Source: Deltaproteobacteria bacterium (GTDB taxonomy: Bacteria; Myxococcota; Polyangia; Haliangiales; Haliangiaceae). From it: a stretch of DNA of 10,426 bases. Positions 5-10,426 of the stretch are shown one piece after another. The stretch is from positions 1-10,426 of the forward strand of contig JAGSPR010000231.1 in NCBI GenBank assembly GCA_018262455.1. The letters are read 5' to 3'. Within the stretch, counting starts at the first letter, position 1; each line of letters begins with the position of its first letter. The position numbers and the translations under genes were made by a program. The notes beneath the pieces were generated by a model. The model saw only the letters and a program-made list of their open reading frames with translations, was not told where the DNA came from and did no database searches.

Positions 5-1093
5 TTGAAGATCCACCACAGCGTGTCGCGTGTGACGGTGATCGTGTGGCTGCTCGGCGCGTGCAGCAGCCCGACGGGCGGCGACCCGGCCGATCTTCCC
101 GACGCGGGGAACGTCGATCCGGGCGACGCGTCGCCGACGACGGATGCGACGACGGCCGCGGCGGCACTCGTCCCGGCCCTCGATGTCTCGGTGTGGACGC
201 GAACCCTCACCGATCCAGACGTCGACTGCATGTGGGCGCTCGGCTACCGCCACGTCATCGCGGGCACCCAGAACCTCGAGGTCACCCGGCAGCAGATCGA
301 GATCGCGACCCGTGGCGGCCTGACGATCGATCTCTACGTCTTCCTGTCGTGGGGACGCAGCATCGCCGCGCAGGTCGGAGAGGCGGTCGCGCTCAAACAG
401 GAGTTCCCGCAGATCGGTCGGATCTGGCTCGACATCGAGGAAGAGCCCGCGGGGCGAAGCCCGGCCACGCTGCGCGGCCTGATCGACCAGAGCATCGCCG
501 CGCTGGGTGACGCGCCGGGCGGGTTCTACACCGGCAAGGGCTGGTGGCAGAGCTATCTCGAGGACACCCTGGCCTACGCCGATCAGCCGCTGTGGTACGC
601 GCGCTACGACGAGAACGCGAGCCTGGCCGCGTGGGACGATCCGGCCTCCAAGGAGCGGTTCGGGGGCTGGCAAGCGCCGGTCGGCAAGCAGTACGGCGAC
701 TACCACAAGCACACCTGCGACCTCGCGGTCGATCGCAACCTCATGTGGGTGTCCGCGGTTCCCAGCGTCGTGGTGGATCGCTCGGTTCCCGCCGACGATG
801 GCACGCCTCCGGTTGCACCCACGGGCCTCCGCCCCGACGGTGGGCTGGTCGTCACGACCACGTACGTCCGTCCGACCGCGCCGGCGATCCGCGAGGCCAC
901 CTCGTACGAGCTCGAGCTGCAATCCTGGGATGGCAGCGCGTTCGTGCCGTACTGGACCACGACCCGGACGGTCTCCGATCTGTTGCTGTACCCCACGCTG
1001 AAAGCGCGCGACTACCGGTGGCGGATGCGGGCCTCCAACCCGCACGGGTTCGGCCCGTGGTCGGACTGGGCCGTGTTCAGCTTCCGAGGCTGA
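5..1093 (+). CDS. GH25-like (lysozyme-fold) secreted lipoprotein with C-terminal Fn3-like domain
   Basis: Predicted exported lipoprotein of 362 residues that probably cleaves peptidoglycan or a related glycan. The N-terminus is a short lipoprotein signal peptide: a hydrophobic stretch at residues 10-17 and a lipobox LGAC with the lipidated Cys at 20. A low-complexity Asp/Pro/Thr/Ala linker follows to about 55. Residues 57-248 resemble glycoside hydrolase family 25: ALDVS (Asp60), WLDIEEE (Asp143 and Glu145, the family's DxE catalytic pair), FYTGKGWW (174-181), PLWYARY (195-201), and a closing KQYGDY...DLAVDRN (Asp239/Asp243). Cys75 and Cys238 could form a disulfide. Residues about 268-361 look like a fibronectin-III domain (YRWRMRASN, then PWSDW). 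The TTG start fits the signal peptide exactly, but the frame stays open to the window edge and no ribosome site is visible, so an earlier start cannot be excluded. It ends 12 bp from the convergent ATP-grasp gene. The fold call is fairly sure; the substrate is inferred. Confidence 0.82.
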   Translation: MKIHHSVSRVTVIVWLLGACSSPTGGDPADLPDAGNVDPGDASPTTDATTAAAALVPALDVSVWTRTLTDPDVDCMWALGYRHVIAGTQNLEVTRQQIEIATRGGLTIDLYVFLSWGRSIAAQVGEAVALKQEFPQIGRIWLDIEEEPAGRSPATLRGLIDQSIAALGDAPGGFYTGKGWWQSYLEDTLAYADQPLWYARYDENASLAAWDDPASKERFGGWQAPVGKQYGDYHKHTCDLAVDRNLMWVSAVPSVVVDRSVPADDGTPPVAPTGLRPDGGLVVTTTYVRPTAPAIREATSYELELQSWDGSAFVPYWTTTRTVSDLLLYPTLKARDYRWRMRASNPHGFGPWSDWAVFSFRG

Positions 1094-1105
1094 CCACGCT
1101 CGGCG

Positions 1106-2323
1106 CTACTCGGCGTACAGCGTGATCTGCGTCGCGACGAGGTTCGCGAGCTCGCAGGTGGTCGCCCAGTCGGGATGGCGCAGCAGGAGGTAGCCGTCGG
1201 AGACCAGCGTGTGCTTCCAGTTGCGCCGCGGCGCGCCGATCGGCAACAGCTTCGACTCGACCACGTGCTCGCCGTGCGCGCGCAGGAACTCGCCAAGCCC
1301 GGTGATCCGCGTGATCCGGCCCTGCCCCACCGCACGCTTGAAGATGATCGCGGCGTTGTACTTGCGCCGGGTCGAGGCCTCGAAGGTCCCCCAGCACACC
1401 GCGCGGGCCCACTCGCGGAACAGGTCGATGTCGCACGTGTAGTTCATCTGGTCGACCAGGTGCGCGCCCGCCGGTCGACACCCGATCTCGCCGAACACGA
1501 CCTCGCCGCTCGGCTTGCGGAACCACTCCATGTGCGTGAAGCCATCGCCCATGCCGAGCGCGCCGAGCACCCGGTTACCGAGCGCGATGCCGTCCGCGAG
1601 CGCGGGTTGCGCCAGCTCGCGCACCGTGACGATCACCGGGCTGACCGACTCCTGCGTCCGCGCGATCAGCGGCTTCGGCAGGTACTGCGCGACGTTCGCA
1701 TAGACCGGCTTGCCGGCGATGCACACGGTGTCGTACGTGAACTCTTCGCCCTCGATGAACTCCTCGAGGCTGGCCTCCTCGACGTGGTGCATCCGGCCGA
1801 GCGCGTCCTCGAGCTCGCGGCCGCTGTCGACGCGGTAGGTATCCGCGCTGCCGGCGCCCGCGATCGGCTTGAGCACCAGCGGGTAGCCGAGCCGGGCCGC
1901 GCCCTCGCGCGCGTCGCTGGCGGTCCGCACGCGCACCGAGCGCGGCACGCGCAGGCCGGCGGCGGCGACCCGGTCCTTCATCAGCTGCTTGTCGCGAAAC
2001 CCGCGCACGGCATCGACCGACATCCCGGGCACGCCGAAGCGCTCGCGCAGCCTCGCCGCGGTGAGCACCATGACCTCCCAGTTCGAGAGCACGCGATCGA
2101 CCTGTCGCCCGCGCATCCAGCCATGGACCCGCGCGACCACGTCATCGTCGTCGAGCAGGCGCGGGACCTGGAGGTAGTCGTGGAGGTGCTGCCTGAGCGA
2201 GGCCGGGAGCGCGCGGGCCGGCTGATCGCCGACCCCGTAGACCGTCGCGCCGACCTCGGCCAGGCCGCGCGTGTACTGCTGCATCTCCGGTGGATAGCTC
2301 GGCGCGAGAAACACGACCTTCAT
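1106..2323 (-). CDS. ATP-grasp ligase (CarB/amino-acid-ligase type), paralogue A
   Basis: Cytosolic 405-residue ATP-grasp enzyme. The family joins a carboxylate, activated as acyl phosphate by ATP, to an amine or thiol; the substrate here is unknown. Residues 1-105 form a Rossmann-like pre-ATP domain (MKVVFLAPSYPP). The ATP-grasp core shows FRDKQLMKD (109-117), the nucleotide-binding Lys in LKPIAGAGS (Lys152), the hinge EEFIEGEEF (187-195), THMEWF (Glu266, metal ligand) and GEIGCRPAGAH (Glu279, Arg283). The usual Asn of the E-x-N-x-R metal motif is Gly281. A C-terminal 85 residues follow the core. The ATG start has a GGAG ribosome site (2335-2332) eight bases upstream. It is 34 bp from a divergent paralogue with collinear motifs, and convergent with the lipoprotein gene. 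It could be an amino-acid or dipeptide ligase. I see no precursor peptide to suggest RiPP maturation. The family is sure, the reaction is not. Confidence 0.93.
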   Translation of the reverse strand: MKVVFLAPSYPPEMQQYTRGLAEVGATVYGVGDQPARALPASLRQHLHDYLQVPRLLDDDDVVARVHGWMRGRQVDRVLSNWEVMVLTAARLRERFGVPGMSVDAVRGFRDKQLMKDRVAAAGLRVPRSVRVRTASDAREGAARLGYPLVLKPIAGAGSADTYRVDSGRELEDALGRMHHVEEASLEEFIEGEEFTYDTVCIAGKPVYANVAQYLPKPLIARTQESVSPVIVTVRELAQPALADGIALGNRVLGALGMGDGFTHMEWFRKPSGEVVFGEIGCRPAGAHLVDQMNYTCDIDLFREWARAVCWGTFEASTRRKYNAAIIFKRAVGQGRITRITGLGEFLRAHGEHVVESKLLPIGAPRRNWKHTLVSDGYLLLRHPDWATTCELANLVATQITLYAE

Positions 2324-2357
2324 CGGAGGAGCTCCACGGTCATGTTACAAGAGACCC
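2324..2357. promoter_or_regulatory. 34-bp divergent intergenic region between the ATP-grasp genes
   Basis: This is the whole non-coding space between the divergent ATG codons at 2323 (-) and 2358 (+). It contains the perfect 8-bp palindrome GGAGCTCC at 2328-2335; its left part on the minus strand supplies the GGAG ribosome site of paralogue A. An AT-richer patch (TGTTACAA, 2343-2350) stands out in this GC-rich DNA. The space is too short for two separate full promoters, so at least one promoter must lie in the opposite gene's first codons or overlap the other. No operator could be named. Confidence 0.5.
2332..2335 (-). promoter_or_regulatory. Ribosome binding site of ATP-grasp paralogue A
   Basis: Minus-strand GGAG lies 8 nt before the ATG at 2323. 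It supports this start for the 405-residue protein. Confidence 0.65.
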
Positions 2358-3572
2358 ATGCGGAACGTGATCTTCGCTGCCCCGTTTCCGCTCGAGACCA
2401 CGATGCGCTTCGCGCGCGCCGCGGCGAGTCTGACCGACGTTCGCCTGCTCGGCATCGCGCAGAGCGCGCCGACCGGCAAGGACCGCAAGCTGTTCGCCGA
2501 CGTCGTCGAGGTCGAGGATGGGCTCGACACCGCCCAGCTCTGCGAGGCCGCCACGATCCTCGAAGGCCGGCACGGCGACATCCACCGCATCCTCGGGATC
2601 CTCGAGCCGCTCCAGGTCCAGCTCGGCCTGGTCCGGCGCGCGCTCGGCATCGCCGGCACGAGCCCCGAGACCGCCGACCTGTTCCGCGACAAGGCGCGGA
2701 TGAAGGACGAGCTCCGGCGCCACGGCCTGCCGTGCGCCCGCCACCGCCTGATCCGGTCGTGGGCCGATGCCGAGGGCTTCGTCGCCGAGGTCGGGCTGCC
2801 GATCGTGCTCAAGCCGCCCGCCGGCATGGGCTGCAAGGCGACCTGGCGGATCAACTCGCTCGACGAGCTGCGCGCCGCCCTGCGCTCGCTCCACGCCGCG
2901 CCCGACCACCCGGCCCTCGCGGAAGAGTTCCTGCGCGGCCGCGAGTTCAGCTTCGAGACCATCACGATCGGCGGCGACATCCACTTCCAGTCCTGCACGC
3001 GTTACTACCCGAGCCCGCTCGAGGTCACCGAGTCGCCGTGGATCCAGTGGGTGGTCGTGCTCCCGCGTGACATCGACGGTCCCGACTTCGCCGATGCGCG
3101 CACGCTCGGCGTCCTCGCGGTCAAGGCGCTCGGGCTCGAGACCGGCATGACCCACATGGAATGGTTCCGCCGCGATGATGGCTCGCTCGCGATCGGCGAG
3201 ATCGCCGCCCGTCCGCCCGGTGCGCACATCGTGCTCGCCAACAGCTACGCGCACGACGTCGACATGTACAAGGCGTGGGCGCGCGCCACCGTGGATGACG
3301 CGTTCGATGGCCCGTTCGAGCGCAAGTACGCCGTCGGCGTCGCGTTCCTCCGCGGCGTCGGCCACGGCCGCGTCGTCCGGGTCTCCGGGGTCGAGCAGGC
3401 GAACGAGCGCCTCGGCCACCTGGTCGTCGAGTCCCGGCTCCCGGTGCGCGGCGCGTTCCGGTCCGATAGCTACGAGGGCGACGGCTACGTCATCGTCCGC
3501 GATCCCGACACCGAGGTCGTCAAGGCCGCGATGAAGGACGTGATCGAGACGATCCAGATCGAGTACGGCTGA
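2358..3572 (+). CDS. ATP-grasp ligase (CarB/amino-acid-ligase type), paralogue B
   Basis: Cytosolic 404-residue ATP-grasp enzyme, homologous end to end with the divergent neighbour and almost equal in length. Motifs sit at matching positions: FRDKARMKD (109-117), LKPPAGMGCK with Lys152, EEFLRGREF (189-197), THMEWFRR (Glu268) and GEIAARPPGAH (Glu281, Arg285). As in paralogue A, the Asn of the metal-binding E-x-N-x-R motif is replaced, here by Ala283. The N-terminal domains diverge far more than the cores (MRNVIFAAPFP against MKVVFLAPSYPP, then little obvious match), as expected if the two enzymes bind different substrates. The ATG is preceded only by a weak purine stretch (AAGAGA, 2349-2354). 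The stop lies 5 nt before the GTG of the large kinase, so the two are probably co-transcribed and translationally coupled. Substrate unknown; amide-bond formation is inferred from the family. Confidence 0.93.
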   Translation: MRNVIFAAPFPLETTMRFARAAASLTDVRLLGIAQSAPTGKDRKLFADVVEVEDGLDTAQLCEAATILEGRHGDIHRILGILEPLQVQLGLVRRALGIAGTSPETADLFRDKARMKDELRRHGLPCARHRLIRSWADAEGFVAEVGLPIVLKPPAGMGCKATWRINSLDELRAALRSLHAAPDHPALAEEFLRGREFSFETITIGGDIHFQSCTRYYPSPLEVTESPWIQWVVVLPRDIDGPDFADARTLGVLAVKALGLETGMTHMEWFRRDDGSLAIGEIAARPPGAHIVLANSYAHDVDMYKAWARATVDDAFDGPFERKYAVGVAFLRGVGHGRVVRVSGVEQANERLGHLVVESRLPVRGAFRSDSYEGDGYVIVRDPDTEVVKAAMKDVIETIQIEYG

Positions 3573-3577
3573 TCGCG

Positions 3578-6500
3578 GTGGACGAGTCGAGGTTCGAGAT
3601 CCGCCGCACCCTCGGCGAAGGCGGGATGGGCGTCGTCTACGAGGCGCGCGACTCGGCCCGCGACATGGTCGTCGCGCTCAAGACGTTGCGCACGCACGAC
3701 GCCAACCTCATCTATCACTTCAAGAACGAATTTCGCTCGCTCGCGGACCTGGCCCACGCCAACCTGTGCTCGCTCTACGAGCTGTTCGAGTCCAACGGAC
3801 AGTGGTTCTTCACGATGGAGCTCGTCGAGGGCTGCGACTTCTTGCAGTGGGTCCGGCCACGCGACGCGTCGACCGGAAACCAGATCGCGCCCACGCTAGA
3901 GGTCCAGCCCACGCCGAAAGGCGAGTCCGGCACGATCGTCGAGTGGGGAACCCCGACGCAACCCGGCCCCAGCCGGGGGCTCCCCGCTGCGCCCGCAGAC
4001 GGCGGCGGACCGTGCGGGTTCGACGAGGTACGGCTGCGAGATGCGCTCGCCCAGCTCGCCGGCGGGCTCGACGCGCTGCACGCGGCCGGCAAGGTCCACC
4101 GCGACATCAAGCCGGGCAACATCCTCGTCACGCGCGACGGCCGCGTCGTGATCATGGATTTCGGCCTCGTCGCTGACGCCGCGCTGCTCGCCGAGCTCGC
4201 CGCGATGCGCTCGATCGCCGGCACCCCGGTGTTCATGGCGCCCGAGCAGGGCGTGCCCGGCGCCTCGGTCGGCACCTCGGCGGACTGGTACGCGGTCGGC
4301 GTCATGCTGTACCAGGTGCTGACGAACAAGCTGCCGTTCGCGGGCGCGACGCTCCAGGAGCTCACGGAGGCCAAGCGCACGCAGCCGCCCGCCCCGACGG
4401 CGAGCGGCGTGCCCGACGATCTCGCCGAGCTCTGCGAGCTGCTGCTGGCTTTCGATCCCGCCGCGCGCCCGACGGGCCAGGAGATCCTGCGCCGGCTCGG
4501 CAGCAAGCGAGCGGCCACGAACCGTCACACCGCGGGTACCGGAGACGTGTTCGTCGGGCGGCGGGCCGAGCTCGGCGTGCTGCACGGCGCGCTCGCCGAC
4601 TCGCGGCGCGGTGCGATCACGGTGTTCGTCGAGGGCCCGTCGGGGCTCGGCAAGACCGCGCTCGTGCGCCGGTTCCTCGACGAGATCCAGGGCAGCGGGA
4701 CGATGATCCTCAAGGGCCGCTGCTACGCGGAGGAGACGGTGCCGTACAAGGCGTTCGACGGCATCGTCGATTCGCTGTCGCGCGACCTCGTCACGATGGA
4801 TCCGGATCGCGCCGCCGAGCTCGTCCCGCCGAGCGCGGTGCTGGCCGCGCGGCTGTTCCCCGTGCTGCGGCGCGTGCCGTGGTTCGCGGCGGCCGTGACG
4901 CCGGCGATGTCCGGCCCCGAGGGCAGCGGCCTCGAGCTGCGGGCCCGGGCGTTCGCCGCGCTGATCGACGTGTTCGGGCGCGTGGCGCACCGCCAGCCGC
5001 TGATCCTGTTCGTCGACGATCTGCAGTGGGCCGATGCCGACAGCCTGCTCCTGCTGCGCGAGCTGCTGCATCCTTCGAACGCGCCGCCGCTGGCGTTCGT
5101 GGCCTCGATCCGGACGAACGAGGCACGCGCCGACCTCGAAGCGGAGCTCGCGCGGTTCGCTCGCGAGCCGCGCTGGATCCGGCTCGGGCCGCTGGCCACG
5201 CAAGATGCGGCGCTGCTCGTCGATCAGCTGCTGCCTCGGCACGCCGCGACCGCCGAGCGACGGCTCGAGATCACGCGCGAGGCCGCCGGGCACCCGCTGT
5301 TCCTCGCCGAGCTCGCGCACCACCTCTCGACGCACAGCGGCGAAGGGCTCGCGATGCGGCTCGACGAGGCGCTGTGGGAGCGCGCGATGGCGCTCGAGCC
5401 CGATTCGCGCCACCTGCTCCAGATCATCGCGGTCGCGGGCACGCCGATCGACGAGCAGACCGTCGCCGACGCGAGCGGCTTGTCACCGACGCGCTGTGCG
5501 CCGTTGGTCGCGGCCCTGCGCGTCGCGCGGTTCGTCAAGACCTCGGTGACCTCGGCAGGCGACAGCGAGATCGAGCCCTATCACGATCGCGTCCGCGAAT
5601 CGGTCGTCACGCGGATGGAGCGGATGACGTTCGTCGCGATGTCGGGCCGGCTCGCGCACGCGATGCTGAGGGCCGGGATGGGCGAGACCTCGCCCGAGCT
5701 CGTCGTCCGTCACCTGTTCGCCGCCGGTGACGCCGGGCGCGGTCGAGATCTGGCCGAGCGCGCCGCCGAGCGCGCCCTGGGGACGCTCGCCTTCGATCGC
5801 GCGGCCGAGTTCTTGCGCGCCGCGCTCGGCGCTGGACCGCGCGACGCCGCACATGCGCGCTCGCTGCACCGCTCGCTCGCCGAGGCGCTCGCCAGCGGAG
5901 GCCGCGGTGCCGAGGCGGCCGACGAGTACCTGGCCGCTGGCGGCGAGATCGCCGACGAGATCCAGCTCGATTGCCGGCGCCACGCGTCGGATCAGCTGCT
6001 CGCGTCGGGTCACGTCGATCGTGGCCTGACCGAGCTCGCCGCGGTCCTGGCGCAGCTCGGCGAGCGCGTTCCCGAGAGCCCCAAGGAGTCGCTCGCGTCG
6101 CTGGAGGCAGGGCGCGCCGCGATCGATGCGACCGCGATCGTCCTCCACGAGCGCGCGACCGCCGACATCCCGGCGGGGCTGCTCCGCAAGCTCGATGTCT
6201 ACCAGTCCACGTCGCTCGGCCTGCTGCTCGTCGACAACGTGCGCGGGGCAGATTTCCAGGCGCGTGCGGTTCGGCTGGCGATCGGCGCCGGGGATCCGCG
6301 GCGCCTGCTCCGCGCCCTGGTGTTCGAGGCGATCTATCGCGCCCAGGAGAGCGCGACCGGCCGCGCTCACGCGACCAGGTTGCTCGCCACCGCCGGTGAG
6401 ATCGCGCGAGGACGTGGCGATCCGTGGATGGACGCCCACCTGGTGTTCGCCAGCGCCTTCCTGGCGTACTACCGCGGCCAGTTTCGCCGCGCGGTCGAGC

Positions 6501-7297
6501 TGTTCAAGGATGCCGACGGTAGGTTTCGCGTGCTGTCCGATGTCGCCTGGGAGCAGAACACGATCCGGCTCCACCGGCTGCGCGCGACCGATTATCAGGG
6601 CGCCTGGGGCGAGCTGCGCTCGCTGTACGACGAGTACCTGCGCGACGCCCAGCGCCGCGACGATCGCTACGTCGAGGCGAGCATCACCCGCTGGTTCAAT
6701 GTCCTGTGGCTCGCCCACGATCGCCCCGATCTCGCCGGCGCCGATCTCGATCGCAAGGTCTGGACGCCTCCCGAGGAGGGCCGCTATCACCTGCAGCACT
6801 TCCTCGAGCTGCGCGCGCGCGTCGAGCTCGCGCTCTATCGTGGCGACGGTGCCGCCCAGGGTGCGTGGGCGCGTCCCGGGCTCGAGTCCGCCGACCGATC
6901 GCTGCTGCTGCGGATCCAGATCGCGCGCGCGATCGCCGATTGGCTGCTCGGACGGATCGCCGCGTGCGAGGGCGACATCGGCGAGATCGAGCTCCGGGCG
7001 GGCCGCCTTACCGACCAGCAGCTCAACTACGCCTCGATCTGGAGCGGCCTGCTCGCCGCAGCGGCGATCGTGCAGCGCGGCGACCAGGCCGGGGCGATCG
7101 CGCAGCTCGAGGCCACGGCCGCGATGGCCGATGACCAGGACTTCCCGCTGTGCGCCGCGATCGCTCGCCTCCGCGCGGGCCAGCTGCAGCCCACGCCCGC
7201 CGGCGCGGCGCAGATCGCGCGTGCTACCGCGTGGATGAGCGGCCAAGACATTCGCGATCCGATCCGGATGTGCGACGTGTTCGCGCCCGGGTTCTAG
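3578..7297 (+). CDS. PknK-like Ser/Thr kinase fused to STAND/AAA ATPase and helical-repeat region
   Basis: Large cytosolic signalling protein of 1239 residues with no membrane segment. The kinase domain covers residues 6-305 and appears active: GEGGMG (13-18), Lys35, helix-C Glu51, HRDIKPGN (174-181, Asp176), DFG (194-196), APEQ (221-224), Asp236 and Arg297. A Pro/Gly-rich insert at about 93-148 separates the hinge from helix E. An AAA_16/STAND ATPase follows from 324: GRRAEL, Walker A GPSGLGKT (353-360), Walker B LILFVDDLQWAD (475-486), a sensor-like VASIRTNE (508-515), the lid motif GHPLFLAEL (571-579) and YHDRVRES (668-675), typical of the winged-helix part of these ATPases. The remainder, about 715-1239, is Ala/Leu/Arg-rich helical and TPR-like. 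GTG at 3578 is chosen because only nine codons precede the kinase fold. There is no clear ribosome site, so coupling to the ligase stop is likely. In the family, ligand binding to the ATPase/repeat part is thought to control the kinase; the ligand here is unknown. Confidence 0.93.
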   Translation: MDESRFEIRRTLGEGGMGVVYEARDSARDMVVALKTLRTHDANLIYHFKNEFRSLADLAHANLCSLYELFESNGQWFFTMELVEGCDFLQWVRPRDASTGNQIAPTLEVQPTPKGESGTIVEWGTPTQPGPSRGLPAAPADGGGPCGFDEVRLRDALAQLAGGLDALHAAGKVHRDIKPGNILVTRDGRVVIMDFGLVADAALLAELAAMRSIAGTPVFMAPEQGVPGASVGTSADWYAVGVMLYQVLTNKLPFAGATLQELTEAKRTQPPAPTASGVPDDLAELCELLLAFDPAARPTGQEILRRLGSKRAATNRHTAGTGDVFVGRRAELGVLHGALADSRRGAITVFVEGPSGLGKTALVRRFLDEIQGSGTMILKGRCYAEETVPYKAFDGIVDSLSRDLVTMDPDRAAELVPPSAVLAARLFPVLRRVPWFAAAVTPAMSGPEGSGLELRARAFAALIDVFGRVAHRQPLILFVDDLQWADADSLLLLRELLHPSNAPPLAFVASIRTNEARADLEAELARFAREPRWIRLGPLATQDAALLVDQLLPRHAATAERRLEITREAAGHPLFLAELAHHLSTHSGEGLAMRLDEALWERAMALEPDSRHLLQIIAVAGTPIDEQTVADASGLSPTRCAPLVAALRVARFVKTSVTSAGDSEIEPYHDRVRESVVTRMERMTFVAMSGRLAHAMLRAGMGETSPELVVRHLFAAGDAGRGRDLAERAAERALGTLAFDRAAEFLRAALGAGPRDAAHARSLHRSLAEALASGGRGAEAADEYLAAGGEIADEIQLDCRRHASDQLLASGHVDRGLTELAAVLAQLGERVPESPKESLASLEAGRAAIDATAIVLHERATADIPAGLLRKLDVYQSTSLGLLLVDNVRGADFQARAVRLAIGAGDPRRLLRALVFEAIYRAQESATGRAHATRLLATAGEIARGRGDPWMDAHLVFASAFLAYYRGQFRRAVELFKDADGRFRVLSDVAWEQNTIRLHRLRATDYQGAWGELRSLYDEYLRDAQRRDDRYVEASITRWFNVLWLAHDRPDLAGADLDRKVWTPPEEGRYHLQHFLELRARVELALYRGDGAAQGAWARPGLESADRSLLLRIQIARAIADWLLGRIAACEGDIGEIELRAGRLTDQQLNYASIWSGLLAAAAIVQRGDQAGAIAQLEATAAMADDQDFPLCAAIARLRAGQLQPTPAGAAQIARATAWMSGQDIRDPIRMCDVFAPGF

Positions 7298-7313
7298 TTT
7301 CCCCGCTCGCACT

Positions 7314-7329
7314 GCTCCCTGCCGGGAGC
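7314..7329. terminator. Hairpin downstream of the large kinase gene
   Basis: Perfect inverted repeat GCTCCC-TGCC-GGGAGC (6-bp stem, 4-nt loop) starting 17 bases after the stop codon at 7297. No T-run follows on either strand, so it is not a textbook intrinsic terminator. It may slow transcription or protect the 3' end. Confidence 0.4.
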
Positions 7330-7346
7330 GACGCGCCATCGCGAAG

Positions 7347-7361
7347 GCCTGGGGGCCAGGC
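7347..7361. terminator. Second hairpin in the convergent gap
   Basis: Perfect inverted repeat GCCTGG-GGG-CCAGGC (6-bp stem, 3-nt loop) near the middle of the 104-bp gap between the convergent kinase and sigma genes. The stem works on both strands and could serve either transcript. It lacks a T-run, and short GC stems arise often by chance at this base composition. Confidence 0.35.
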
Positions 7362-7401
7362 GGTGCGACGCGACACCTGTGGGCTGAGCTCGTCCGCCGC
7401 G

Positions 7402-8235
7402 TCAGCGCTGCCGGAGGCCGCCGGTCAGGCTGAGCTGGCTGCCCACCAGGCCGACCAGGCTGTCGAGCTCGTCGCCGTGGATCTTCTTGTGGCGCATGAG
7501 CGATCGACGAATTCCAGCCAGCAAGACCACGCGCGCCTTGCCGAGGCTCCGGCTGACGTTCGACGGTGCGAGGCTGAACAACTTGCCGAGCTCGACCACC
7601 CCCACGCCGTCGATGTAGTACTGCAGCAACAAGCTCCGCTCACGATCGGACAGCGTTTCGATCGCTTCCCGAAGCGCGGCCTGGAGCGTCCGCCGGGCGT
7701 CCTCCTTGAGGTGCGAGAGCGCGGGCCCGTGTCCGGGGTCGATGCCGATCGCGGTGAGCAGCGCGTCCTCGGTCGGAACCTCGCGCACCGCTCGAGCCAG
7801 GTCGATCGCGATCCGCGCGGCGGCGGCTCGGACCCAGCGCGCGAGATCGCCGCGACCCGCATACTGCGCGATCCGCGGGTTCGGGCCGACGAACAGCTTC
7901 TGGCGGAGCTCTTGCTTCGTGTCGTCGGAGGTCCGCGAATCGCCGGCGAGAAACGCGAGCTCGAAGGCGGCGAGCGCTTTCGGATCGCCAGCGGCACACG
8001 CGCACGCGAGGTAGAGATCGGCGAGCCGCAGGCCATCGAGCGCCTGCTCGAGGCTCGGCGGGCTCGTCGGGATGCGGATCGCGACGGCCGCGACGAACCT
8101 CGCCGGCTCCACCACCACGCCTGGCCACCGGCGATGCGCGTCCGCGATCGCCGTCGCGAGGCGCGCGTCGACCGTCGCCGGGTCGTGACACACGGTCTCG
8201 GCCAGGTGACCCAGCAGCAGGCGCGAGAGCTGCAC
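7402..8235 (-). CDS. ECF-like sigma-70 family RNA polymerase sigma factor (myxobacterial type)
   Basis: Predicted alternative sigma factor of 277 residues with the chosen GTG start. The first 70 residues are an extension before region 2. Region 2 spans about 72-150: LADLYLACACAAGDP (71-85), KLFVG (113-117), IAQYAGRGDLARWVR (122-136) and ARIAIDLAR (140-148). After a linker, region 4 at about 190-246 shows ETLSDRERSLLLQYYIDG (193-210) and the helix-turn-helix VVELGKLFSLAPSNVSRSL (213-231), which should read the -35 element. A C-terminal tail of about 30 residues follows. The layout resembles sigma factors I associate with myxobacteria; the exact subgroup is not assigned. The frame stays open to 8559, but that stretch lies over the divergent kinase, so I choose GTG at 8235. 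The nearest GGAG is too close to it to act as a normal ribosome site, and an in-frame GTG further upstream would overlap the kinase. The divergent kinase carries an anti-sigma-type zinc finger and is the likely partner. Confidence 0.87.
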   Translation of the reverse strand: MQLSRLLLGHLAETVCHDPATVDARLATAIADAHRRWPGVVVEPARFVAAVAIRIPTSPPSLEQALDGLRLADLYLACACAAGDPKALAAFELAFLAGDSRTSDDTKQELRQKLFVGPNPRIAQYAGRGDLARWVRAAAARIAIDLARAVREVPTEDALLTAIGIDPGHGPALSHLKEDARRTLQAALREAIETLSDRERSLLLQYYIDGVGVVELGKLFSLAPSNVSRSLGKARVVLLAGIRRSLMRHKKIHGDELDSLVGLVGSQLSLTGGLRQR

Positions 8236-8269
8236 CTCCGCATGGTAGCCTAGCCCACGGAGTATCCAG
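8236..8269. promoter_or_regulatory. 34-bp divergent region between sigma factor and zinc-finger kinase
   Basis: This is the space between the chosen GTG codons at 8235 (-) and 8270 (+). It holds the kinase's ribosome site (8259-8262) and an AT-richer core (TGGTAGCCTAG, 8243-8253) in which a -10 element could sit. It cannot hold two full promoters. The kinase promoter must extend into the first sigma codons, or the sigma promoter into the kinase's. I could not identify a convincing ECF-type -35/-10 pair by eye. Confidence 0.4.
8259..8262 (+). promoter_or_regulatory. Ribosome binding site of the zinc-finger kinase
   Basis: GGAG followed by a 7-nt spacer to GTG at 8270. It supports this start, which also places the zinc-binding Cys4 in the protein; the next in-frame starts would remove it. 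Confidence 0.65.
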
Positions 8270-10426
8270 GTGACGGAGTGCCTCGGCGAGAACACCGTCA
8301 CCGATCTGGTGGAGGCGCTGCTGGCGCCCGCCCGGCGCGTGGCGGTGGAAGCCCACGCCGCGCGATGCGAGCCCTGCCGACGGTTGATCTCCGAGCTGGT
8401 TCGCCGATCGCACGAGGTCGCGCAGGGGACTCCGCAAGCGGGACTCTCGACGCAGGGCAGTTTCGATCCTTGGTTCGCCGAGGACCGAACTGGAGCGATC
8501 GGGATCGGGCCGACCGGCATCGAGGCTCGCGGTCGCGACCGCACGATCGCGCCAGGCACGAGGGTCGGCCGCTACGTCGTCCGCGACCAGCTCGGCAGCG
8601 GTGCGATGGGCGCGGTGTTCGCGGCGTACGACCCCGAGCTCGACCGCGCGATCGCGCTCAAGCTGCTCCACCCGGGGAGCACGACGCAACGCGCTCGGAT
8701 CCGGCGCGAGGCGCGGGCGCTCGCGCGGTTGTCTCATCCCAATGTCGTCGCCGCGTACGATGTCGGCGAGCACGACGGCGACCTGTTCCTGGCGATGGAG
8801 CTCGTCGACGGCATGAGCCTGCGCGCGTGGGTGAAGCCGCAGCGCTCGACCGCCGACGTGCTCGACGTGTTCCGCCAGGCGGGCCGCGGGCTCGCCGCCG
8901 CCCACGCGGCCGGGCTCGTCCATCGCGACTTCAAGCCAGACAATGCCGTCGTCGGCAACGACGGCCGGGTCCGGGTCGTCGACTTCGGGCTCGCGGCAGG
9001 GCCCGATGGGGGCACCGCGCTGGTCGGGACGCCGGCCTACATGGCCCCCGAACAGTTCGAGGCCGGCGGCGCTGACGCCGCATCGGACCAGTTCGCGTTC
9101 TGCGTCGCGCTCCACGAGGCGCTGTTCGGCGACCGACCCTTCGCGGTGAACCTCGTCGAGGACGTGGCGCGCGGCCTCGGCAACGGCCCGCCGAAGCCAC
9201 GCGAGGTGCCGGCGTTCGTGCTGGTGGCGCTTGCCCGCGGGCTCGAGGTCCAGCCTGCCAACCGTCATCCGTCGATGGATGCCTTGCTCGCCGAGCTGTC
9301 CCGCGATCCCGGCAAGCTCCGCACCCGGGTCGTCGTCGGTGGGGCGGTCGTCGTCGCGAGCCTGATCGCGGGCGGCCTCGTGATGTCGGGACGAGCGGGG
9401 CCGCCGCTCTGTCAGGACTCGACGACGGTGTTTGCACGGGTGTGGAGCCCGGCGCGCGAGGCAGACCTCCATGCACGGTTCACCGCGGTCTCGGCACCGT
9501 TCGGCGAAGACGCCTGGCGCGCGGTCGAGCGCGGCATCGCCGGCTTCGGCGCGCGCTGGGTCGCCGCGCGCACCGAGTCGTGCGAGGCGACGCGCGTCCG
9601 CGGCGTCCAGTCGGACCAGATCTTCAGCCTTCGATCGTTATGCCTCGACCACGGCCTCGGCGAGCTCGATGCCCTCGCGACGCTGCTCGAGTCCGTCGAC
9701 CCCGCGTCGATCGCGCAGGCGCCGGCGGCGATCGACCGGCTGCCGTCGCTGGCCGAGTGCGCGAACCTCAAGGCGCTGCTCGCGCCGGTCCCGCTGCCGG
9801 TCGACAAGGACGCCGCGGCGGTCGCGGCGGTCAACCAGCAGCTCGCCCGGGGGCGGGCGCTTCGCGATGCCGCGCGCTGGGCCGAAGCCCGGTCGCTGGC
9901 GACCACGGCCGTCGAGGTAACCCGTACGATCGGCCACTCACCGACGCACGGCGCGGCGTTGTTCCTCCGCGGCGAAGCCGAGGAAGGCAGCGGCGACGCG
10001 AGGCAAGCCGAGGCGAGCCTGCGCGAGGCATTCGCGGCCGCCGAGGCGGGATCCGACGATCTGCTCGCCGCCCGCGCAGCCGCGGAGCTGGTGTTCGTCG
10101 TCGGCCAGATGCAGAACCGGACCGCCAACGGGCTCGACTGGGCATTTCATGCCGACACCGCGCTCAAGCGCGCGGGCGGTGACCTGGAGATCGAGGCGCG
10201 GATCGCTGGCAATCGCGCGACCCTCCGGGCTGCCCAGGACAACTTCGCCGAGGCCCGCGTGCTCTATCAGCGGGCGCTCGACCTCCGGATCAAGACCACC
10301 GGCCCCACCAGCGTCACGACCGCGCGCGCGCTGTTCAACCTCGGCTACGCGGTGATGGCGCAAGGCGACAACGCGCACGCGCTCGAGCTCGACACGCGCG
10401 CGCTCCACCTGATCGAAGCCGCGCTC
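8270..10426 (+). CDS. Membrane Ser/Thr kinase with N-terminal anti-sigma-type zinc finger and periplasmic TPR region (3' end cut)
   Basis: Partial gene: 719 codons, open to the window edge with no stop. Residues 4-36 form an anti-sigma-type zinc finger (zf-HC2/ZAS): Cys4, then His29-x3-Cys33-x2-Cys36. A linker to about 98 leads to a kinase domain (100-340) with GSGAMG (109-114), Lys131, Glu147, HRDFKPDN (218-225, Asp220), DFG (238-240) and APEQ (259-262), all consistent with activity. One membrane helix (about 354-373) follows, preceded by Lys/Arg, so the kinase is cytoplasmic and the rest periplasmic. The outer part has four cysteines (381, 438, 458, 497), with CEATRVRGVQS and LRSLCLDHGLGEL around two of them, a layout I recognise from myxobacterial TPR kinases. 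TPR-like helices run from about 510 to the edge. It lies divergent to the sigma gene, which suggests it binds or phosphorylates that factor. GTG at 8270 has a good GGAG site. Zinc-finger and kinase calls are strong; the sigma partnership is inferred. Confidence 0.9.
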   Translation, partial: MTECLGENTVTDLVEALLAPARRVAVEAHAARCEPCRRLISELVRRSHEVAQGTPQAGLSTQGSFDPWFAEDRTGAIGIGPTGIEARGRDRTIAPGTRVGRYVVRDQLGSGAMGAVFAAYDPELDRAIALKLLHPGSTTQRARIRREARALARLSHPNVVAAYDVGEHDGDLFLAMELVDGMSLRAWVKPQRSTADVLDVFRQAGRGLAAAHAAGLVHRDFKPDNAVVGNDGRVRVVDFGLAAGPDGGTALVGTPAYMAPEQFEAGGADAASDQFAFCVALHEALFGDRPFAVNLVEDVARGLGNGPPKPREVPAFVLVALARGLEVQPANRHPSMDALLAELSRDPGKLRTRVVVGGAVVVASLIAGGLVMSGRAGPPLCQDSTTVFARVWSPAREADLHARFTAVSAPFGEDAWRAVERGIAGFGARWVAARTESCEATRVRGVQSDQIFSLRSLCLDHGLGELDALATLLESVDPASIAQAPAAIDRLPSLAECANLKALLAPVPLPVDKDAAAVAAVNQQLARGRALRDAARWAEARSLATTAVEVTRTIGHSPTHGAALFLRGEAEEGSGDARQAEASLREAFAAAEAGSDDLLAARAAAELVFVVGQMQNRTANGLDWAFHADTALKRAGGDLEIEARIAGNRATLRAAQDNFAEARVLYQRALDLRIKTTGPTSVTTARALFNLGYAVMAQGDNAHALELDTRALHLIEAAL

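Follow-up and report, generated by a model that had tools for sequence, protein, structure and literature searches.

The sigma factor and kinase genes of the window

The DNA analysed here, referred to as the window, is a stretch of 10,426 nucleotides from a member of the Haliangiaceae (contig JAGSPR010000231.1), in which a sigma factor gene stands divergent to the gene of a predicted receptor kinase. The sigma factor gene (7402..8235, minus strand) starts with GTG and encodes 277 amino acids. Its product scores 169.3 bits against the NCBIfam profile TIGR03001 (Sig-70_gmx1, Myxococcales family 1; cut-off 154.6), the members of which are called gmx1 sigmas below. The general sigma70-ECF model, for sigma factors of extracytoplasmic function (ECF), stays under its threshold (40.2 bits, cut-off 42.9), as do all matches to the Pfam region-4 models. 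An N-terminal helical extension (approximately residues 1–70), sigma2 (71–151), sigma4 (171–250) and a C-terminal helix (254–273) are predicted. The protein is a member of TIGR03001, but of a subgroup that lacks 10 residues of region 2.1 compared to other paired sigmas and that also contains the sigmas of loci L001–L005 and L054 (Kofleriaceae, Nannocystis).

The kinase gene (8270..10426, plus strand) likewise starts with GTG and is open at the 3′ end of the window, with 719 amino acids visible. As its full-length close homologues have 950–975 amino acids, the TPR region is incomplete at its end. Between the two divergent start codons lies a gap of 34 bp (8236..8269, no strand), which has TAnGCTAnCATG in common with the corresponding gap of relative L001 (about 1510–1545). 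A promoter call from this shared stretch was rejected because the stretch is too short, and a promoter/terminator scan of 7250–8450 found no element. The closest homologues of both proteins for which an organism is named come from Kofleriaceae bacteria (P0012, P0130), which places the source of the window, a soil myxobacterium, near this family.

From its N-terminus, the kinase is predicted to consist of a zinc-finger domain with three helices (residues 1–47; 8270..8410, plus strand, as are all parts that follow), a linker (about residues 48–101; 8411..8572), a Hanks-type Ser/Thr kinase domain (about residues 102–348; 8573..9313), a single membrane helix in the form of a hydrophobic stretch (about residues 354–372; 9329..9385) and an outer part that extends past the window (9386..10426) and contains TPR repeats and four cysteines (381, 438, 458 and 497). 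The linker is shorter in close homologues, for example in P0004, where about 20 Pro/Ala-rich residues lead to the kinase domain (judged by eye). Pfam matches are found to Pkinase (127 bits, residues 102–292) and TPR_12 (59 bits). Residues K131, E147, D220, K222, N225 and D238-F239-G240 are invariant across the 23 aligned kinase sequences of profile A2, which spans finger and kinase domain; the catalytic Lys and Glu, the HRD Asp and the DFG motif are among them. The protein has the intact catalytic residues of a Hanks-type kinase, and activity is predicted. In an alignment of 15 kinases, every sequence has the four outer cysteines, and position 4 is occupied by Cys in 10 of them and by His in the other 5. 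The latter pattern fits zinc binding inside the cell, and the outer cysteines may perhaps form disulfides.

The N-terminus reads C4-x24-H29-x3-C33-x2-C36. The motif Hx3Cx2C occurs within the first 150 residues of 83 of the 120 listed kinases, the one of the window included, and in all 83 a Cys (78) or a His (5) stands exactly 25 residues before the motif His; a Cys or His is also found there in all 50 locus kinases with the motif. Because a potential zinc ligand is present at this position in 83 of 83 cases, the finger is more than a chance motif. The same ligand spacing is known from ChrR (H6, H31, C35, C38). On the window finger alone, the profile zf-HC2 reaches 21.8 bits (cut-off 22.2), a weak match for this individual sequence; the profile is matched by 48 of 51 fingers of the family at E ≤ 0.01. 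A model of the first 60 residues forms a three-helix bundle corresponding to helices 1–3 of the class I zinc anti-sigma domain. Sequence and fold searches group the finger with the anti-sigma zinc domains of RslA, ChrR, RsiW and DdvA (the latter presumably from Myxococcus), and the models of the finger and of sigma4 are similar to the two respective halves of the RslA:SigL-sigma4 complex. By ligand motif, profile and modelled fold, the finger is an anti-sigma-type zinc domain, which would bind a sigma factor. The original prediction had described such a finger (C4, H29, C33, C36) on an active-looking kinase with one membrane helix and a TPR outer part, 34 bp away from an ECF-like sigma gene, and all these features are borne out.

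Pairing of finger-kinases with gmx1 sigmas

Genome contigs were scanned for relatives of the sigma factor, and the best 80 of 123 relatives were used. A kinase lies within 2.5 kb of the sigma gene at 51 of these 80 loci, and in 48 of the 51 it carries the finger by motif or profile. A group of similar sigmas without such a neighbour includes those of L011–L013, L017–L018, L020–L022, L025, L027–L028, L032–L033 and similar loci.

Seven genomes were reached via named loci: Nannocystis poenicansa FL3, Archangium lansinium, Sorangium cellulosum So ce26, N. exedens, Polyangium y55x31, Pyxidicoccus caerfyrddinensis and Citreicoccus inhibens. TIGR03001 matches 47 places in them above its cut-off and one more at 136.8 bits, the next match having 47.8 bits. 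For 46 of these 48 gmx1 sigma genes, a finger is encoded in a long open reading frame (ORF) within 5 kb, a number that becomes 45 without the one pair that depends on a finger of 21.1 bits. The 46 pairs occur in several gene orders (17 divergent, 14 with the kinase first, 14 with the sigma first and one convergent), and up to 14 gmx1 sigmas are found per genome among the genomes examined. One of the two exceptions is a sigma that begins at base 298 of its contig, while an unpaired finger-kinase in the same genome begins at about base 219 of a different contig. The sigma/kinase pair is thus not special to the window but one of a family.

The pairing was also counted from the side of the finger. 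Finger matches of at least 33 bits were entered for the seven genomes, plus the sigma-adjacent one of 21.1 bits. Among the matches listed, 45 of the 50 finger ORFs with at least 500 amino acids and at least 33 bits lie beside a gmx1 sigma. A further 18 matches below 33 bits, in ORFs of this minimum length, were not entered, for which reason there are two counts, the wider one being given below. Five strong fingers have no such partner, namely the contig-edge case above and those of L081, L082, L087 and L088, which encode a kinase with finger and have no gmx1 sigma match in 10–11 kb. The C-terminal half of the Sorangium finger-kinase of L082 (4418–7093, plus strand) appears globin-like and hydrolase-like by eye.

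Kinases without a finger provide a contrast. In most genomes 150 candidates were scored, and the kinase and finger counts are lower bounds. Among the 150 listed for each of three genomes, matches to profile A2 that start at profile position 7 or earlier number at least 10 (G002), 7 (G001) and 2 (G003), and adding a search with the finger profile brings the finger-kinases listed to 10, 8 and 3, respectively. Three matches beginning at profile positions 13–25 were counted as finger-less. All 429 listed finger-less kinases of these three genomes are more than 5 kb away from any of their gmx1 sigmas, the nearest one ending at a distance of 5,013 bp. The finger is, in other words, concentrated in sigma-paired kinases. 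Plasmid-borne kinases give 119 records that match the window kinase, and in 3 of these the match covers 80% or more of the query. The 30 plasmid matches listed all begin at query residue 54 or later and hence are without finger.

An even draw of 117 genomes from the phylum contains 57 with a sigma match at E 1e-25, 56 of which are above the cut-off. From this draw 19 further genomes, mostly of low copy number, were picked as a replicate. They hold 46 listed sigmas, 34 of them above the TIGR03001 cut-off. With the finger profile alone, a finger ORF is found within 5 kb for 28 of the 34 sigmas above and 6 of the 12 below the cut-off. These counts, for which the weaker fingers had been entered in part, were replaced by a reading of the 46 loci in which any finger match at domain E 0.1 was counted, up to about 6 kb on each side. 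On this reading a finger-kinase is present at 39 of the 46 loci (29 of 34 above and 10 of 12 below the cut-off), and the exact motif is found in 30 of the 39. At three further loci the contig is short: the kinase of L092 is cut by the contig start, and the contigs of L095 and L140 end close to the sigma. Linkage in relatives, which the original prediction had set as its own test, is therefore found in both sets, with 46 of 48 sigmas in the seven genomes and 39 of 46 in the nineteen.

Five of the strong finger ORFs of the replicate that are not beside a gmx1 sigma were read: those of L101–L103 and L105 have kinase domains and that of L104 does not. The L104 ORF (4649–7861, plus strand; 1070 amino acids, no kinase match) adjoins a weak sigma match of 32 bits and is perhaps another finger-sensor fusion.

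A receptor kinase as candidate anti-sigma factor

We lean, if only slightly, towards a one-receptor cassette in which the finger of the kinase holds the cognate gmx1 sigma via sigma4 and releases it on a signal. The kinase would span the inner membrane, with the TPR sensor outside and both the zinc finger and the kinase domain inside. The N-terminal finger would dock the sigma through region 4, as RslA binds sigma4 of SigL, and would probably sequester it, keeping it at the membrane and out of reach of the −35 element. Once the outer part receives a signal, the kinase would become active, and phosphorylation of the finger or linker, or of the sigma itself, would then free a sigma factor already competent for core polymerase binding. 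In this proposal the binding of the sigma, its inhibition, the way in which phosphorylation acts, the orientation in the membrane and the signal are all inferred. In class I anti-sigma domains, helix 1 contacts sigma4 and helix 4 contacts sigma2, and helix 4 accounts for 12 of the 14 top coevolving contacts (PMC7406223). With helices 1–3 only and the linker of about 20 residues in P0004, a contact with sigma4 would be the natural prediction, the contact with sigma2 being missing or otherwise made. For the Myxococcota as a whole, chances are about even that a large family of transmembrane switches exists in which the receptor kinase itself is the anti-sigma factor, with the finger gripping sigma4, kinase activation opening the grip, and up to 14 such pairs per genome.

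The main rival explanation, which we regard as possible but doubtful, is that the finger serves as a docking site only. The sigma factor would then be recruited by the finger to its kinase and activated by phosphorylation at a position other than the ECF43 site, without being sequestered. Three helices without helix 4 may suffice for docking to sigma4 and be too few for the complete class I grip, the catalytic residues of the kinase are preserved, and EcfK, a sigma factor of ECF43, also has phosphosites in the linker between sigma2 and sigma4 (PMC13147305). However, region 2.2 argues against this explanation. The codons of residues 102–105 of the window sigma, T-S-D-D (7921..7932, minus strand), align with the DAED core-binding motif, and the third and fourth positions are acidic. 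The same two positions are acidic in 46 of 48 paired sigmas (the split sigma of L047 and the misaligned one of L009 excluded), which should therefore be active unless held. In the unpaired sigmas, of which 31 were counted, the first DAED position is Arg in 24 and the third is Ser, Ala or Asn in 20. In addition, no phosphosite specific to the kinase stands out: four positions are Ser/Thr in at least 75% of the paired sigmas, and since 27–31 of 32 unpaired sigmas have Ser/Thr there as well, these positions are at least about as common without a kinase.

The region 2.2 data also weigh on ECF43-type control, under which the sigma would be inactive by itself until the kinase adds the negative charge that region 2.2 lacks. 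The Ser/Thr protein kinase (STPK) encoded next door is indeed reminiscent of ECF43, and T102, S103 and T106 of the window sigma lie in or beside the motif. Yet the ECF43 phosphosite is Ser/Thr in none of the 48 paired sigmas, and because these sigmas are already acidic and lack Ser/Thr at that site, activation of this type is unlikely for them; as an account of the cassette we give it very little credence. The proposal in the original prediction that one protein both holds and phosphorylates the sigma factor is accordingly upheld in part: the class of the finger, the catalytic residues and the linkage speak for it, whereas phosphorylation that adds charge to region 2.2 is the part that looks unlikely. 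Alternatively, the finger could regulate the kinase itself as a structural or redox switch, with the sigma as a neighbour under the same signal that is never touched. Some finger-kinases stand without a gmx1 sigma, and zinc sites of the anti-sigma type can be redox-responsive (PMC8999054), but the finger occurs predominantly in kinases paired with a sigma, across several gene orders, and divergence of the sigma follows that of the finger more closely than that of the kinase domain, which makes this explanation improbable. The correlation of divergence is 0.544 between sigma and finger and 0.442 between sigma and kinase domain, with partial correlations of 0.417 and 0.235, respectively; none of 2000 permutations reaches the sigma-finger, the sigma-kinase or the partial sigma-finger value. 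This signal is modest, and it would be compatible with sequestration and with docking alike.

Several observations count against sequestration by a cognate finger-kinase. Regarding the finger, the best Foldseek E-value is weak (0.19), and helix 4 is not seen in the modelled part of the kinase, where the model stops at residue 60; judging from this model, the classical grip on sigma2 would be missing unless another part replaces helix 4. In the more distant half of the pairs there is no correlation of divergence (−0.16 for sigma-finger, −0.08 for sigma-kinase), and the overall sigma-finger value does not exceed the 0.5–0.6 of the non-interacting controls in PMC7406223, which were obtained by another method. 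Regarding linkage, no kinase is found within 2.5 kb at 29 of the 80 sigma loci, most of which belong to the one group of similar sigmas named above and some of which are near contig edges. In the sigma-paired kinase of L040 (ORF 817–4965, minus strand), Tyr replaces one of the zinc-ligand cysteines upstream of the kinase domain, and L086, the second exception in the seven genomes, has no kinase match in 12 kb. With all weaker finger matches included, 46 of 69 ORFs in these genomes lie beside a gmx1 sigma. In the replicate, 9 of the 39 finger-kinases are without the exact motif, the finger scoring 15–18 bits in three of them (L093, L100 and L141); the kinases of L096 and L098 show no finger match, and L091 and L094 have neither kinase nor finger. 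Moreover, 13 of the 42 strong finger ORFs there are not beside a gmx1 sigma, and the finger is less exclusive to sigma partners in the replicate than in the first seven genomes.

Known systems and neighbouring genes

The finger-kinases combine features of two types of sigma factor control. Like the class I zinc anti-sigma domains of ChrR, RslA, RsiW and DdvA, the finger has the Hx3Cx2C motif, the three-helix fold and the sequence profile, and the gene of its predicted membrane protein is linked to a sigma gene. Unlike these domains, it is fused to a catalytically intact-looking kinase and shows no helix 4 in the modelled part. The membrane anti-sigma factor DdvA (PDB 8rlz, 8rot) has the same type of finger, but its full-length entry 8rot is named as a CHAT domain-containing protein and not as a kinase. 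In the ECF43 pairs EcfP-PknT and EcfK-PknS, the sigma gene likewise adjoins that of a transmembrane Hanks-type kinase with an outer domain (PMC8999054; PMC13147305). The gmx1 pairs differ from them in the acidic region 2.2, the anti-sigma-type finger of the kinase and the sigma family, TIGR03001. An STPK neighbour is also shared with ECF59, ECF61, ECF62, ECF217 and ECF283, for which the representatives named in PMC8999054 are from Planctomycetes and Nocardioides, unlike the myxobacterial gmx1 pairs. For the STPK-linked ECF groups outside ECF43, the same review notes a DAED-like motif and a possibly different mode of action, the mechanism of which is still to be resolved (PMC8999054).

As the original prediction had put it, these two control modes are usually separate, and reviews indeed list membrane anti-sigmas and kinase-controlled ECF sigma factors apart (PMC8103513; PMC8999054). 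The recurrent pairing suggests that a single protein here takes on two roles that usually belong to separate families. No paper on anti-sigma-finger kinases beside gmx1 sigmas was found in a search of titles and abstracts, a mention in the ECF classification literature being possible, and the excerpts of PMC8103513, PMC7694542, PMC2877116, PMC7406223, PMC13147305 and PMC8999054 describe no such pairing. Both components are familiar on their own. Their fusion, the link to a single sigma family and the scale on which it occurs appear to be undescribed in the literature searched. If the proposed cassette exists, it would constitute a further route from an outside signal to a sigma factor, besides proteolysed anti-sigmas, partner switching and charge restoration of the ECF43 type. 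The family would also give a testable answer to how STPK-linked ECF sigma factors outside ECF43 are controlled, namely that the kinase holds the sigma by its finger. As the sigma and kinase genes adjoin, cognate partners can be proposed at once for many sigma factors and receptor kinases of myxobacteria.

The other genes of the window lie beyond the sigma factor. The next large one (3578–7297, plus strand) encodes a second Ser/Thr kinase, a protein of 1239 amino acids that is fused to an AAA_16 ATPase domain. It is preceded by two divergent ORFs of the ATP-grasp type (1106–2323, minus strand, and 2358–3572, plus strand), which are likewise 34 bp apart and for which the best NCBIfam match, PRK02186, is far below its cut-off. 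Lastly, an ORF of 362 amino acids (5–1093, plus strand) has no NCBIfam match at E ≤ 1.

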